Shown here: positions 48,976-55,934 of the stretch, one piece after another
Numbering within the stretch: position 1 is the first letter of the stretch
Layout: each line of letters starts with the position of its first letter
Assembly (NCBI GenBank): GCA_027487685.1
Contig: JAIYDC010000133.1
Coordinates: forward strand, 1 to 64,000
Source of the DNA: Pseudomonadota bacterium
GTDB lineage: Bacteria; Bdellovibrionota; Bacteriovoracia; Bacteriovoracales; Bacteriovoracaceae
Length of the DNA stretch: 64,000 nucleotides
Reading direction: 5' to 3'
Program-made: the position numbers and the translations under genes
The notes under the pieces: model-generated
Seen by the model: the letters and a program-made list of their open reading frames with translations, nothing else
What the model was told of the DNA's origin: nothing
Database searches by the model: none

Positions 48976-50883
48976 ATGAAAGGATTCAAGTACCATAAAT
49001 TGAAGGAAGAAGTCAGCACCTCAGACTCCTGGGGTTCGTACTCCGATCTCTTTATGGTGCTCTCGTTCGTCTTCCTGATGATGTACGTCGTGGCTTCCCT
49101 CAGAACTGGTACAAGCTCGATCCATGAAAAAATAGAAAAGAAAAAACTCGGCCGTGAGAATCAGGAACTCCGTGCGCAAATCAAGGCGTACAATACATTG
49201 AAAGACCAAGCACTCAAGGAGGAGACTCCCGAAGAACAGCAGGTTTACCAAGACCTCATGGGGAAGCTTTCCCTTCTCGAAGAAAAGGCAAAAGCAGAAA
49301 AGGTAAAACTGCGCCAGGAAGCGCTCGATCGTGAACAAAAAGAAATGGCGCTCAATAACTATCAACAAATCGTAAAAAGCATCATCGACGCCAACCTTCT
49401 TGCCAAAAATAAGCTACAAGTCCGTGAGGAAATCATCGAGAAAAAGAACGATGAACTCAAAAATCACAAGGCTGAGATTACCCAAAACAATGTGGCCATC
49501 AATGAAATCCAATCCGACCTTAAGCGGAAGATAGAAGAACTTTCGGAGGCACAGCGAACCTTTACCATCAGTCGAGATAGTGCGAAGGAACAAATTGCAA
49601 AACTTCAGGCCTTAAGCCAGGACCAGATAAATAAACTGAGTGAGAAAAATCGTCTGGCAGAGGCCAAGGCGGTCGAGGTTGCAAGAGAGCTAGCAGAAAG
49701 CCAGAGCCGTGTTAGCATAGTTGAACAGGAGAAAATAAAGCTCAAGCGAGACCTCGCATCATCGACTGAGAAACTCGAAATGACAGTCAAAGATTACGAG
49801 AAACAGATCGGCGCCGCACGTGCCGAACATCTCGCCAGGATTGCCGAAGAGCGTAAGACTTTGGAAAAAAATTTTGCTGAGGCGAATCTGAGCTCCAAAG
49901 AAAAACAGCGTCAACTAGAAGAATTCAACCAGAGATTGAAAGAAAATGAACAACAAGTCCAGGCCCGGGTTAATGAACTCCAAGCGGCCCTCAGTGAGAC
50001 AAAAAACCGTGAGCTCGAAGCGACAAAAGAGAAAGAAAAACTATCTCAAAAACTCACCGATACTGTAAGCGATTATAAAAAACAGATCACTGACATGCAG
50101 GCCAGCTATGATCTGAAGATGGCAAAAGATAAAGTCGAGTTCCAAGACAAGCTTCGTACGGCCAACATCTCCGCAGAGGAGAAGGCCCGTCAGCTCGTCG
50201 AGTATAACAAAAGAGCGAAGCTCCGGGAATCGGCACACGCCAGCGAAGTTGCAAAGCTTAAAGAGAATCTAACGGATGCTCAAACGAAGGCCCAGGCGAG
50301 AGTCAAACTCTCACGCGACATCAGCTCTGCCCTTCACAAAGCTGGAGTCGAGGCGAGTGTTGACCCCGAGACAGGGGACGTCGTCATAACATTCGGGAAA
50401 GACTTCTTTGACAAAGGCTCCGCCGATCTTAAGCCAAGTATGAAAGAGGTGCTTCAGAAATTTATTCCCAAATACTCCGAATCACTCCTTCGGGATCCTG
50501 AAATAGCTCGAAAGATCTCTTCCGTTGAGATCATTGGCTTCGCCTCCCCTACTTACCGGAACAAATACGTCGACCCGAATAGTCTTGATGCCCAAGACCA
50601 GGGAGCTGCTAAGTATAACCTAGACCTAAGTTTCCGCCGAGCACGCTCGATCTATGACTACATTTTCGACACCAAGACGATCCGCTATACGTACCAAAAA
50701 GATCTCCTCGCCAAGGTTAAGGTTTCTGGCCGAAGCTTTTTTAGTGAGGACCGTGCCCCGGCCGGAGTCATACCAGGTATGCCACAAAGCAAGTTCTGCG
50801 AACTCGTAGACTGCAAACAGGCACAGAGAGTTATCATAAAATTTAATCTCGATGAAAAGAATGTCACAAGGAGTGAGCCGTGA
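48976..50883 (+). CDS. MotB-like stator protein with very long coiled coil and OmpA-like domain
   Basis: A 635-residue protein. The N-terminal segment SWGSYSDLFMVLSFVFLMMYVVASL (19-42) matches the MotB plug helix: Asp24 sits where MotB has its proton-binding Asp at the cap of the single transmembrane helix. Residues about 45-468 are an almost unbroken heptad-type coiled coil rich in E, K, Q. Residues 469-635 form an OmpA-like peptidoglycan-binding domain (VVITFGKDFFDKGSADLKPS, EIIGFASP, NLDLSFRRARSIYDYI, CKQAQRVIIKF). The coil places this domain far from the membrane, unlike flagellar MotB (about 300 residues). It is coupled to the next gene by a GTGA overlap. GATGAG is the only ribosome-site candidate. 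Confidence 0.75.
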   Translation: MKGFKYHKLKEEVSTSDSWGSYSDLFMVLSFVFLMMYVVASLRTGTSSIHEKIEKKKLGRENQELRAQIKAYNTLKDQALKEETPEEQQVYQDLMGKLSLLEEKAKAEKVKLRQEALDREQKEMALNNYQQIVKSIIDANLLAKNKLQVREEIIEKKNDELKNHKAEITQNNVAINEIQSDLKRKIEELSEAQRTFTISRDSAKEQIAKLQALSQDQINKLSEKNRLAEAKAVEVARELAESQSRVSIVEQEKIKLKRDLASSTEKLEMTVKDYEKQIGAARAEHLARIAEERKTLEKNFAEANLSSKEKQRQLEEFNQRLKENEQQVQARVNELQAALSETKNRELEATKEKEKLSQKLTDTVSDYKKQITDMQASYDLKMAKDKVEFQDKLRTANISAEEKARQLVEYNKRAKLRESAHASEVAKLKENLTDAQTKAQARVKLSRDISSALHKAGVEASVDPETGDVVITFGKDFFDKGSADLKPSMKEVLQKFIPKYSESLLRDPEIARKISSVEIIGFASPTYRNKYVDPNSLDAQDQGAAKYNLDLSFRRARSIYDYIFDTKTIRYTYQKDLLAKVKVSGRSFFSEDRAPAGVIPGMPQSKFCELVDCKQAQRVIIKFNLDEKNVTRSEP

Positions 50884-51869
50884 ACGATCTGATCTCTGGG
50901 ATGCTTACCGCGCTAATGAATGTCGCGACGGATCTTCTCATGCCGTTGATGGCCTTTACTTTCGCAGGCGCAGTGACACTGCGCTTTCTCATATGGGCAA
51001 CGGTAAAGCGTGAAGCTTGGTTTGCCCGAGGATTTGAAAAGAGGACTCTGGAGTACCTCAAAAAGACGCGAAAGAATCCTGCTAAATACACATCTTTTTT
51101 TGTCACGACCAAGATGCTCTTGGAGAAGACCTATTACGAGCTCTTCATCATGCGCTCTCTTCTGAAGCGTCGTAACCCTGACCTCATCATGGATAAGTCG
51201 GATAGAATTCTACTTGTGCAAGCAGGTTGCGCACGACTAGTGAAGGATACCCTGAAGCACGTCGAGTACTTTGACTATAAGGATGGGAAGCCGGACACCT
51301 TTGGCACGACCACCCAGATTTTCGAAAAAAATCCTCAATTTAATGCTGTATTTGGGTACCTTCCGGTGGGTACCTGCAATGACATCATCAACATCCTTCC
51401 TGGGATCTTCATCGTCGCAGGGATCTTCGGAACCTTCCTAGGAATCATGAGTGCATTACCAGAATTAGGAGCGATGGATCTGGCGGACATCGATAAGTCG
51501 AAACTCGTGATGGATCAATTTTTGGTCAAGATGTCGTATTCTATGATCACCTCGATCTTCGGAATCGTATTAAACGTAAGTCTAACTATCATCAACGCCC
51601 TGATGAACCCCAACAAGGTCTTCGTTGATTCTGTTGAGCGCTTTTGCCACTCTCTGGAGAAGCTTTGGACCACCTGCTCAAACAACGTGATGCCACAGGA
51701 CATAAAAGACTTCGATGAGCATAAAGATCCAATCGAGGCCCTGGCAGAGGAATCCGTCGACATGGAATACCGTCAGTCGAAATACTACATAGAAGAGATG
51801 GCCGATACCGAGGACAAAAATCTCCGCAAGATCGTTAAGTCAAACTCGGAGAAAGAACGGGCGGCGTAG
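50880..51869 (+). CDS. MotA/TolQ/ExbB-like proton-channel protein
   Basis: A 329-residue inner-membrane protein. Three hydrophobic segments: 16-40, 169-193 (INILPGIFIVAGIFGTFLGIM) and 218-242 (MSYSMITSIFGIVLNVSLTI). The GIFGTFLGIM pattern with a later S-I-x-G-I motif is the family core of ExbB/TolQ and of ZorA. A cytoplasmic loop of about 125 residues lies between the first two helices and a charged tail follows. It starts at GTG, preceded by AAGGAG, and overlaps the MotB-like stop by four bases. MotB-like before MotA-like is reversed from the usual flagellar order. It probably forms the ion channel around the MotB-like helix. Confidence 0.75.
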   Translation: MNDLISGMLTALMNVATDLLMPLMAFTFAGAVTLRFLIWATVKREAWFARGFEKRTLEYLKKTRKNPAKYTSFFVTTKMLLEKTYYELFIMRSLLKRRNPDLIMDKSDRILLVQAGCARLVKDTLKHVEYFDYKDGKPDTFGTTTQIFEKNPQFNAVFGYLPVGTCNDIINILPGIFIVAGIFGTFLGIMSALPELGAMDLADIDKSKLVMDQFLVKMSYSMITSIFGIVLNVSLTIINALMNPNKVFVDSVERFCHSLEKLWTTCSNNVMPQDIKDFDEHKDPIEALAEESVDMEYRQSKYYIEEMADTEDKNLRKIVKSNSEKERAA

Positions 51870-51872
51870 CAC

Positions 51873-53270
51873 ATGAATGGAACCGATAAAATCATCGTTT
51901 TGATTGATGGCCCCCAAGGCACGCAGCAAGTGTCGATGGCAAAATCGACCTTCGTTTTGGGACATGGCGCCCAATCGGACATAGACCTAGGCATAGATAC
52001 CATAGCTCAAAAGCAGACCCGAATCACCTTCACCGGGGGAGAACTTTGGGTCGAAGATCTCTCTAGCGCAAACGGCACATGGTTGAATGGGAAACGTCTT
52101 ACACTCGGGAAGCGCGTCCGAATGAATTCTACCGACCACTTGACCTTCGGGACGAATCACAGGCTAACTGTGAGTCTCGTTATTTTAGAGACTGAGCAGG
52201 TCGTGTCTGAACGGCTCGTCGCTAATGGATCATCATTTTTTGTCAATGAAGATCCTTACCCCACCGGGGAAAGACCCCACAGTGGCCTTGCTCTCGTAGA
52301 AATTATTGACGAATCTTCTGCCCGCGAAATTTTGGAAGAGGAATACGAAGCTTGTCACCAACGACTCACCAAGTCTCTCGAGGAAGAACGAAAACTCTTG
52401 GAAGATCTGCGCAGACAGCGAGAGGAAATAGAAGGACAATATCAACAGACCCCTACACCGGTCTTACCATCAGATAGGATCTTATCCTCGGATGCGGCCT
52501 CAGACCTTTCGGTCCGACTTGCCGATCTCATCCAGAGCCAACTCAAGGTTAATCACGGCCGATTTATCGATGACAGCTACTTAAAGGAATTTCGAGCAGA
52601 GGCCGTGGACCTTTTCCATGACGAACTTCTTGGAAAGGACTCAGAGGAGTCCCTAAGGCTCAAGGCGCGACACCAGAGGCTGGCGGTGGCCAAAAAAAGA
52701 AAACAGCGCCTATTTCGTGGTCTAAGCCTCGTTGGTGTCTTAGCTAGCTTTGTCCTCATGGCCCACTTCCTCCGCCCCGACCTCAGTGTTAGAGGCCAGA
52801 ACTCAATGACCGAGCTTTTCTCAAAAAAGCGCTACCAGAACGCTGAGGAATTTGCCCGTAAGAAGATCATTGCTACACGCCAGCGTCATACGTACGCGCC
52901 GACGACGACTCCCGAATTCAAACTGACCTTTTACGAGAATGTCCTCTTCACCACGGATTTCCTCTCAAAATTCCGTAAGAGTGTTTACCAGGACAAGTGG
53001 ATCATTGACCTTAACGACTTCTTTATTCATAGGCTCGACGTTAAGGATACGACCATCATACGCTACGTTTCACTCGAGGCGAACTTCCTCAACGAACTTG
53101 AGAAGCTCAAGGCCTCCGTAGACCCCCGCAACCCGGCCCCTAAGATCGCTCAGATGAAGGCCTTGGAGCGCGAATTCAAAGAAAAACTCGCAACGATCTT
53201 TGAGGACCCGGATAAGGTGGCAGTCTTCTACGAGTTCCATCAAAGCTTCTGGAAGGACTTCTACCCATAA
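51873..53270 (+). CDS. Membrane-anchored FHA-domain protein
   Basis: A 465-residue protein that starts three bases after the MotA-like stop. Residues about 27-105 are an FHA domain with the turn SSANGTWLNGKRL and DHLTFGTNHRL, but the phosphothreonine-contact residues differ from consensus: GR is GH (30-31) and the SRxHA segment reads AQKQTR. A coiled coil (150-190), a helical segment, a transmembrane helix at 282-300 (RGLSLVGVLASFVLMAHF) and a 165-residue C-terminal part follow. With FHA facing the cytoplasm, the C-terminal part would be periplasmic. In the context it may receive or transmit a signal for the stator proteins. Confidence 0.75.
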   Translation: MNGTDKIIVLIDGPQGTQQVSMAKSTFVLGHGAQSDIDLGIDTIAQKQTRITFTGGELWVEDLSSANGTWLNGKRLTLGKRVRMNSTDHLTFGTNHRLTVSLVILETEQVVSERLVANGSSFFVNEDPYPTGERPHSGLALVEIIDESSAREILEEEYEACHQRLTKSLEEERKLLEDLRRQREEIEGQYQQTPTPVLPSDRILSSDAASDLSVRLADLIQSQLKVNHGRFIDDSYLKEFRAEAVDLFHDELLGKDSEESLRLKARHQRLAVAKKRKQRLFRGLSLVGVLASFVLMAHFLRPDLSVRGQNSMTELFSKKRYQNAEEFARKKIIATRQRHTYAPTTTPEFKLTFYENVLFTTDFLSKFRKSVYQDKWIIDLNDFFIHRLDVKDTTIIRYVSLEANFLNELEKLKASVDPRNPAPKIAQMKALEREFKEKLATIFEDPDKVAVFYEFHQSFWKDFYP

Positions 53271-54115: not shown

Positions 54116-54436
54116 CTAGAAAGCACTCTCCTGGGCGAGATCGAAGGTCCCACGCCGCCACCACTCCTCTCCTTCGTCAATGGAGAGACTCTCCCCTAGC
54201 GCCACTTTCAGGAGTTTTGCCTGATCACCCTTTTCGTTATTATTCTTTCCATCAACCAAGACACTGCGAACATGATCCGGATGAAAGAGGAAAAATGTCC
54301 GAAGAGGGCCACCGAAGTAAGCTAAGTACCCGTATCGGTCACGAAACGTTTCGATGGCACTCAAGGGATCATTCTTAAACGGCCGTATACACTTCAGATA
54401 ATCCAAGCCCTTTACCGGGGTCAAGTTTCGCTTCAC
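54116..54436 (-). pseudogene. Cytochrome P450, N-terminal fragment
   Basis: A 106-residue frame from GTG 54436 that matches the first quarter of bacterial cytochrome P450s: DPLSAIETFRDRYGYLAYF, FLFHPDHVRSVLVD, LGESLSIDEGEEWWRR and a QESAF end, aligning with the usual HPxxVxxVL, GEGLLxxEGExWRRxR and QPAF segments. The stop falls at the point where the B'/C helices should begin, so the I-helix, ExxR and heme-binding Cys loop are missing. No rest of the gene is found on either strand nearby. It is most likely a remnant. Confidence 0.65.
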
Positions 54437-54974: not shown

Positions 54975-55934
54975 ATGAACGCCTTGACCACCACTACGCT
55001 CTTACTCATCCTGTTAGCAAGCTCAGCGCATGCTCAGATTCTGCGCGCTTTCAGCGCCAGCTCCCTCATCGAGTTTGGGCCAGCGGCCGAAGAGGGATTC
55101 TGGATCAATCCCATGGGACCACTTGCTCGCGGGAGAGGTGTCACTGGTTCGTACGGGCCGCTGGGAAATCTCGGTCCCTTCGGCGAGGCCATCTGGAACT
55201 CCACTAACGCCTTCAGAGCTGCCGGTAACTGGGAACAACTGGCCCAGGCCCTCTCCCGGATGAACGGTCCACTAAGTGCTTCAGGCCCGGTCTTTCTCAC
55301 CACCGAGCTCGGTCAGGCCATGCTGAACTTCAATGGAGCTGCACACCTTCTTGCTCCGGGTGGCGTCCTTCACGCTCTCGGGAACGCGGGCCCCCTTGGT
55401 CCCCTTGGCATCGCCGGCATGCTCGGACCCAATGGAGCTCATGGGTTCTCCCGCAACGCCGCGGGGAACTACTTGGACCAGAACAGGAACGTTGTGAGAA
55501 CTATTCGCATTAATAGCCATGAGGGGCCAAAGGAGTTCGACCTCTATGAACTTTATAAACTAGACAGTTTTCGGAGCAGCGAGATCCTTGATACCTCCTT
55601 CGGCCTCCGAGGTAAAATCGATCGCGGCCAGATCGTTCAACTTCGAGTTGCCTCCAAGCGAGCTCAATGGGTGAACTTCCTGGTGGTTAATGAATACGAG
55701 CTCGATAGCTTCGCCCTACAGGTCGCGGACGAAGCCGGAGGTGTGATCGAGTCTAACGCTGAAACCCTTTCCAACTTCATCAGCGTCAAAGTGAGACCGG
55801 GAACTCGCCTCAAAGTTAGCTTAACGCACCGTTCTTCACTTCACGCCTTCCGAAAGCCCTTCCGCCTTTATGTCACAGGCTCCGAAGGCGCAACGGAGGT
55901 AAGTCGCCCTTTTCATTACGTTCAGGGACGCTAG
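54975..55934 (+). CDS. Secreted GPLG-rich protein of unknown function
   Basis: A 319-residue exported protein with signal peptide to about residue 20 (TTLLLILLASSAHA). The first half is rich in Gly-Pro-Leu-Gly phrases (NPMGPLARGRG, GPLGNLGPFG, NAGPLGPLGIAG, MLGPNGAHGFS) around WN and NxxG turns, which suggests a compact repeat-bearing surface domain. The second half (about 165-319) has a beta-rich pattern (IVQLRVASKRAQWVNFLVVNEYELDSFALQV, SVKVRPGTRLKVSLTHRSS) like a C-terminal carbohydrate or pre-peptidase beta-sandwich domain. No family recognised by eye. No obvious ribosome site (CCACCT precedes the ATG). Confidence 0.6.
   Translation: MNALTTTTLLLILLASSAHAQILRAFSASSLIEFGPAAEEGFWINPMGPLARGRGVTGSYGPLGNLGPFGEAIWNSTNAFRAAGNWEQLAQALSRMNGPLSASGPVFLTTELGQAMLNFNGAAHLLAPGGVLHALGNAGPLGPLGIAGMLGPNGAHGFSRNAAGNYLDQNRNVVRTIRINSHEGPKEFDLYELYKLDSFRSSEILDTSFGLRGKIDRGQIVQLRVASKRAQWVNFLVVNEYELDSFALQVADEAGGVIESNAETLSNFISVKVRPGTRLKVSLTHRSSLHAFRKPFRLYVTGSEGATEVSRPFHYVQGR

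Follow-up and report, generated by a model that had tools for sequence, protein, structure and literature searches.

What kind of machine is encoded where a MotB-like gene, a MotA-like gene and a gene for an FHA protein stand in a single operon, and what part does the third gene play in it? The question is raised by a locus in a genome of the Bacteriovoracaceae, phylum Bdellovibrionota (GenBank assembly GCA_027487685.1), within positions 1 to 64,000 of contig JAIYDC010000133.1; this stretch of 64,000 nucleotides is hereafter called the window. Rotary ion motors form a small class, one member of which, Zorya, is to our knowledge known only as phage defence. Relatives of the locus were searched for in 369 Bdellovibrionota genomes and in plasmids, and statements on absence apply within that phylum.

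Organization of the operon

Gene 1 (48976..50883, + strand) encodes a ZorB/MotB-like axle or anchor protein of 635 amino acids (PADLOC ZorB1 1.2e-31; Pfam OmpA 4.9e-5, marginally short of the cut-off), gene 2 (50880..51869, +) a ZorA-like ring protein of 329 amino acids with three transmembrane (TM) helices (PADLOC ZorA1 8e-9; NCBIfam ZorA 1.1e-7), and gene 3 (51873..53270, +) a protein of 465 amino acids in which an FHA domain is followed by a coiled coil, a TM helix and a helical domain predicted to be periplasmic. The products of genes 1 and 2 are referred to as the B and A subunits. The open reading frames bear out the first-pass annotation, which had described three genes joined by a GTGA overlap, the GTG start of gene 2 lying within the stop of gene 1, and by a spacing of 3 bases between genes 2 and 3. 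Its domain assignments also held: a MotB-type helix with an Asp (D24, in an invariant YSDLF motif), an OmpA-like C-terminal domain, a three-helix ExbB/ZorA-like protein and an FHA protein with one helix (Pfam FHA 4.3e-11), both helix counts being confirmed by hydropathy.

The gene order of the operon was found again in 85 sampled loci, far above chance, with median gaps of 11.5 bp from the B to the A gene and 18 bp from the A to the FHA gene; gaps were no longer than 60 bp at 83 of 84 B–A and 58 of 67 A–FHA junctions. An FHA gene follows the motor at 67 of the 85 loci, the conservation on which the first-pass annotation had made its proposal depend. Compared with the nearest relative (genome G006, locus L024), identity was 79, 93 and 67% for genes 1, 2 and 3, and dN/dS was about 0.05, 0.02 and 0.08, rough values since dS is saturated; all three genes are under purifying selection with strong constraint. 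That the third gene is an operon bystander with no functional tie to the motor is very unlikely in our judgement. It is missing at some loci, and one genus has a solitary FHA-TM paralogue beside lipid and glycosyltransferase genes, but against this stand the adjacency across many families with operon-like gaps and the genome-wide pattern, in which the C-terminal domain of the FHA protein (present in 132 of 369 genomes) mostly adjoins the motor, exceptions being largely at contig ends.

PADLOC gave no match to the Zorya effector genes ZorC/D, ZorE or ZorF/G among five flanking genes of the window and none for the gene 3 product, in line with the earlier remark that no Zorya effector gene adjoins the operon. 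No flagellar genes were found beside the operon and no TolA, TonB or Pal genes were seen within it. Downstream, a 106-aa reading frame (54116-54436, −) resembles by eye an N-terminal piece of cytochrome P450 and is possibly a truncated gene, and a secreted-looking protein of 319 amino acids (54975-55934, +) carries repeated Gly-Pro-Leu-Gly stretches and has no Pfam match.

The ZorB-like subunit

Hydropathy indicated one TM helix in the gene 1 product, at residues 24-42, the predicted ion-binding D24 (codon 49045..49047, +) standing at its start. Among homologues at 80 loci, the Asp of the YSDLF motif is present in 79, the remaining one being an N-terminally incomplete frame; in Zorya, D24 of ZorB is essential (PMC11890865). 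The helix is linked to the OmpA-like domain by a long segment of coiled-coil type (49100..50400, +, borders approximate), recognized from its sequence and from coiled-coil proteins among weak profile matches, which if straight would exceed the width of the periplasm. B subunits of relatives are mostly 500-830 amino acids long, with a maximum of 1036. The OmpA-like domain (50404..50757, +), predicted from profile matches and conserved residues to bind peptidoglycan, contains the motif N-x-x-L-S-x-x-R (N548, L551, S552, R555), invariant in the 80 homologues. The canonical GH of peptidoglycan-binding domains is GF in the window, as in 63 of the 80 homologues (GH in 13), and since in Zorya the corresponding ZorB His is important for holding peptidoglycan (PMC11890865), binding by the gene 1 product is likely rather than certain. 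Together with the ZorB1 match, the conserved D24 and motif identify a ZorB-type subunit with an ion-site Asp and a peptidoglycan-binding domain. A Cys pair near the C-terminus (C608...C613; 50797..50814, +), found in 80 of 80 homologues, is a signature of the family; this Cys-x4-Cys ending might form a periplasmic disulphide.

The ZorA-like subunit

The three TM helices of the gene 2 product were placed at residues 20-38, 172-190 and 223-241 by hydropathy. ZorA profiles gave its best matches, yet far below their curated cut-offs; MotA_ExbB (PF01618) scored 0.005, also below cut-off, and TolQ 0.078. An AlphaFold model based on a 51-sequence alignment (pLDDT 88.7) had ZorA chains as top matches in a fold search (Z about 12); ExbB and TolQ scored no more than about 1 unit lower, and flagellar MotA was absent from the list. 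T185 in TM2 and S225 in TM3 (51432..51554, +), invariant in 85 of 85 homologues, are candidate polar-ring residues. A quick tree grouped the ZorA-like family into a single clade, from which 17 PF01618 paralogues were separate; nine of the 17 come from genome G154, which we take to be Bdellovibrio bacteriovorus HD100. Two true ZorA rows fell on the side of the family, on long branches, and we therefore do not claim that it is the sister of ZorA. The long cytoplasmic tail of ZorA is absent from the A subunit (329 amino acids in the window, 301 in the HD100 copy).

The profile comparison places the pair with ZorAB, in keeping with the first-pass view that this is no ordinary flagellar or gliding motAB; its broader assignment to a non-flagellar MotAB/ZorAB-type class was sound but is narrowed here to ZorAB-like. 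An extra MotAB, paralogous to the flagellar stator, would account for the MotB-like layout, the OmpA-type domain and the conserved Asp. We rejected this reading, which we regard as extremely improbable: hydropathy and the model agree on three rather than four TM helices, B precedes A, flagellar neighbours are lacking, and profiles and tree are distant from the flagellar-type paralogues of the HD100 genome.

The FHA-transmembrane protein

The FHA domain of the gene 3 product (51954..52151, +) is predicted to be cytoplasmic, and a residue table showed that its phospho-binding residues have decayed: of the phospho-threonine signature (GR, S-x-x-H, NG), the window copy has GH in place of GR and no S-x-x-H. 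In relatives, the site retains Arg in 48, Ser in 52, His in 52 and Asn in 46 of 65 sequences; in group B of the window's genus the phospho-threonine residues are all lost. In the window copy and its close genus relatives the domain must therefore have another way of working or be vestigial. The proposal of an FHA-gated machine thus keeps its conserved FHA gene, but gating by phosphorylation is unsupported for the window copy. The Yop-YscD_cpl profile also matched gene 3, just below its cut-off (7.7e-8).

A short coiled coil links the FHA domain of the window copy to a single TM helix (residues 280-298; 52710..52766, +), identified by hydropathy, with positive residues on its N-terminal side indicating an N-in, C-out orientation. 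FHA homologues range from 465 to 1440 amino acids (median 973), and all 52 with a detected TM helix have one only, about 166 residues before the protein end. The C-terminal domain of about 130 residues (52878..53267, +), conserved in an alignment of 56 sequences, is predicted to be periplasmic and all-helical (AlphaFold, pLDDT mostly >90 there). A fold search of the PDB gave no convincing relative of it (best Z 5.2, spidroin N-terminal domain), and no function was therefore read from this domain; TonB_C did not match the gene 3 product.

Some variants of the locus were observed in passing. Genome G006 holds two copies of the operon (L024 and L025), one near that of the window and the other of a second group, with the FHA phospho-site lost. 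Solitary FHA-coiled-coil-TM proteins with the shared C-terminal domain occur without a motor at L211, L212, L214 and L216, all of one genus, and at L213; the one at L214 adjoins glycosyltransferase-9, mannosyltransferase-like, PAP2 and LpxR genes. In genome G009, a natural deletion (L215, 5497-7659) has removed the A subunit, leaving the B subunit and, of the FHA protein, the C-terminal end.

Exchange of the partner gene

At 12 of the 85 sampled loci, the gene after the motor encodes a cyclic-nucleotide-binding (CNB) protein of 146-164 amino acids instead of an FHA protein. With a second sample of loci, 24 CNB partners were examined, and the phosphate-binding cassette (G-E-L/M ... R) of CNB domains was present in 24 of 24; the CNB loci form one clade, in which B subunits are longest, reaching 1036 amino acids. 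In genome G128, the FHA gene is replaced by a response-regulator receiver (REC) of 179 amino acids (PF00072, 6.7e-26; L226:812-1351, −, equivalent to L247:3463-4002) located 9 bp after the A gene, the only REC case seen and a single locus. Neither an FHA nor a CNB gene lies on the same strand at 6 of the 85 loci: L036 is cut off by the contig edge, the CNB gene at L042 is convergent, L108 has a reading frame of 2164 amino acids that the models do not recognise, L099 has an ankyrin gene upstream of the motor, and the partner gene is absent from L038 and L039, which indicates that the motor can exist without a partner.

Upstream ankyrin-TM proteins of 497-695 amino acids, encoded divergently, were found at L099, L253, L254, L256, L257 and L258, in two families. 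Their N-terminal domain looks FHA-like by eye, and these loci have no downstream partner gene. The ankyrin-TM protein possibly fills the partner slot there, although divergent transcription makes its tie to the motor weaker. The partner slot is thus exchangeable between FHA, CNB and REC proteins. The FHA partner had been put forward as a distinctive trait of the locus, a view qualified both by this exchange and by precedent, since the pairing of an FHA-transmembrane protein with a motor is already known from GltG and AglRQS: in Myxococcus gliding, GltG interacts with the TolQ-like AglR in two-hybrid assays (PMC3169522).

Distribution in Bdellovibrionota

Of the 369 genomes searched, 179 carry the A subunit; it is present in 121 of 235 good genomes and in 87 of 182 genera. 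The genome taken as HD100 carries the operon at 1,107,724-1,112,616, some 2 kb ahead of ftsY, and its FHA site is intact. No match to the motor was obtained in two genomes that are presumably those of B. exovorus JSS and Halobacteriovorax marinus SJ, which argues that predation in itself does not require the motor. The tree of A subunits broadly tracks bacterial families, and plasmids searched with the A subunit and the FHA protein yielded no true relative. The distribution is unlike that of a defence island.

These results bear on whether the operon could be a divergent Zorya anti-phage system, in which the ZorB-like protein would sense phage-disturbed peptidoglycan and the motor would signal to an unlinked effector via the third protein, replacing the ZorA tail. 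By profile and fold, ZorA and ZorB are the closest homologues of the motor, and the long cytoplasmic rod of ZorA, which is needed for defence (PMC11890865), might have a counterpart in the coiled coil of the FHA protein. True ZorA1 profile matches, however, occurred in only 2 of 291 genomes, against the 121 of 235 for the motor described here; the broadly family-like tree shows no island-like scatter, a CNB protein of 150 amino acids cannot serve as a tail, and none of the flanking window genes tested matched a PADLOC defence gene. We consider such a system quite unlikely.

Proposed mechanism and significance

In our model, which we believe slightly more than we doubt, a 5:2 motor powered by ions is held by peptidoglycan, and a signal module in the cytoplasm gates it. 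The operon would specify a three-part motor of the envelope, inherited within Bdellovibrionota, with five copies of the ZorA-like protein around two of the ZorB-like protein, and ions crossing the D24 site would power their relative rotation. At the tip of the long coiled coil, the OmpA domain of the ZorB-like protein would hold peptidoglycan. The third gene would provide a regulatory input, its single TM helix docking at the ring and its helical C-terminal domain lying in the periplasm; the cytoplasmic FHA head, carried by a coiled coil whose length varies, would read a signal (phospho-threonine where the FHA site is intact) and accordingly allow or stop the passage of ions. Elsewhere in the phylum a CNB protein, once REC, and in two families possibly the ankyrin-TM protein would occupy the same slot. 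The analysis establishes the linkage of the genes, their homology and conservation, the predicted folds and the exchange of partners, and the motor part of this model is well supported. We infer the 5:2 assembly, rotation, docking, and gating with its direction, the pentamer around a dimer and its ion-dependent rotation from homology to ZorAB, for which a 5:2 ion motor is established (PMC11890865).

The main rival to an input role is an output role, as for GltG with AglR: the operon would then encode an Agl/Glt-type machine for gliding or force transduction, in which motor force passes through the envelope by way of the FHA-TM protein. GltG is itself an FHA-TM protein that binds a motor subunit, the FHA copy of the HD100 genome scores 9.8e-11 with GltG over residues 13-187, and one TM helix followed by a folded periplasmic domain recalls the layout of TonB, TolA and GltG. 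This reading fits poorly with a C-terminal domain that is helical and has no detectable TonB_C, with a long helix on the cytoplasmic side, and with a motor that is ZorAB-like rather than TolQR-like and, in the HD100 genome, stands apart from the remaining paralogues of MotA/TolQ type. Nor does the exchange for CNB or REC suit a transducer, since a small soluble protein could stand in for a regulator but scarcely for a tail that transmits force. We regard this machine as unlikely. As the slot accepts unrelated soluble receiver domains, input is the most likely role of the partner, which could alternatively report the state of the motor instead of controlling it.

The first-pass annotation called the motor a candidate undescribed one. 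Searching the literature for an FHA-motor operon in Bdellovibrio turned up the Glt system and Bd0474, an unrelated FHA protein linked to Tad (PMC6561027, PMC12034629), and nothing else; none of the papers searched describes a three-gene ZorAB-like unit. The module is phylum-wide and not a local oddity. A survey of MotAB relatives omitted Zorya proteins from its phylogeny (PMC12505986) and so could have missed a ZorAB-like family. Our results suggest an undescribed three-gene unit of an ion-driven motor and an interchangeable signal-sensing partner, that is, a motor switched by cell signals. A motor that swaps partners and occurs in about half of the phylum and in the model predator Bdellovibrio would reveal roles of ZorAB outside defence and bear on the possible origin of Zorya. 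If gating is true, cyclic nucleotides or protein phosphorylation would be linked directly to an envelope motor. More broadly, the ZorAB-type motor may be a general envelope engine of Bdellovibrionota set by an interchangeable cytoplasmic receiver (for phospho-threonine, cyclic nucleotide or phospho-aspartate), and hence a signal-gated rotary family outside flagella, Tol/Ton and defence, a generalization to which we give a little less than an even chance.

Comparison with known systems

The window copy shares with the cytoplasmic FHA-like domain of YscD/PrgH from type III secretion an FHA fold without phospho-site in a single-TM protein, but the match is one of fold only and the operon is without secretion genes. 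Flagellar MotAB is likewise an Asp-dependent motor with an OmpA-type anchor, and differs in its four-TM MotA, its A–B order and its lack of a third gene. TolQR and ExbBD have a three-TM A subunit in common with the operon, whereas the B subunit described here has an OmpA-like domain and a long coil. In AglRQS-GltG of Myxococcus gliding, an ion-driven motor of TolQ/MotA type is also paired with an FHA-TM protein; that system has a TolQR-type motor, a TonB-type C-terminus in GltG and a large set of Glt genes, in contrast to the ZorAB-type motor, the helical C-terminal domain and the three-gene unit found here. The best profile and structure matches of both subunits are to ZorA and ZorB of Zorya types I and II, with which they share the one-TM B subunit with D24 and peptidoglycan-binding domain and the three-TM A subunit. 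Since the features of the Zorya motor core are present and the ZorC/D/E effector and the long tail of the A subunit are not, the operon is ZorAB-like but not a Zorya system, and it is set apart from Zorya by the Cys pair and the long coiled coil of its B subunit, by the order B–A, by the additional FHA, CNB or REC partner and by its phylum-wide inheritance.
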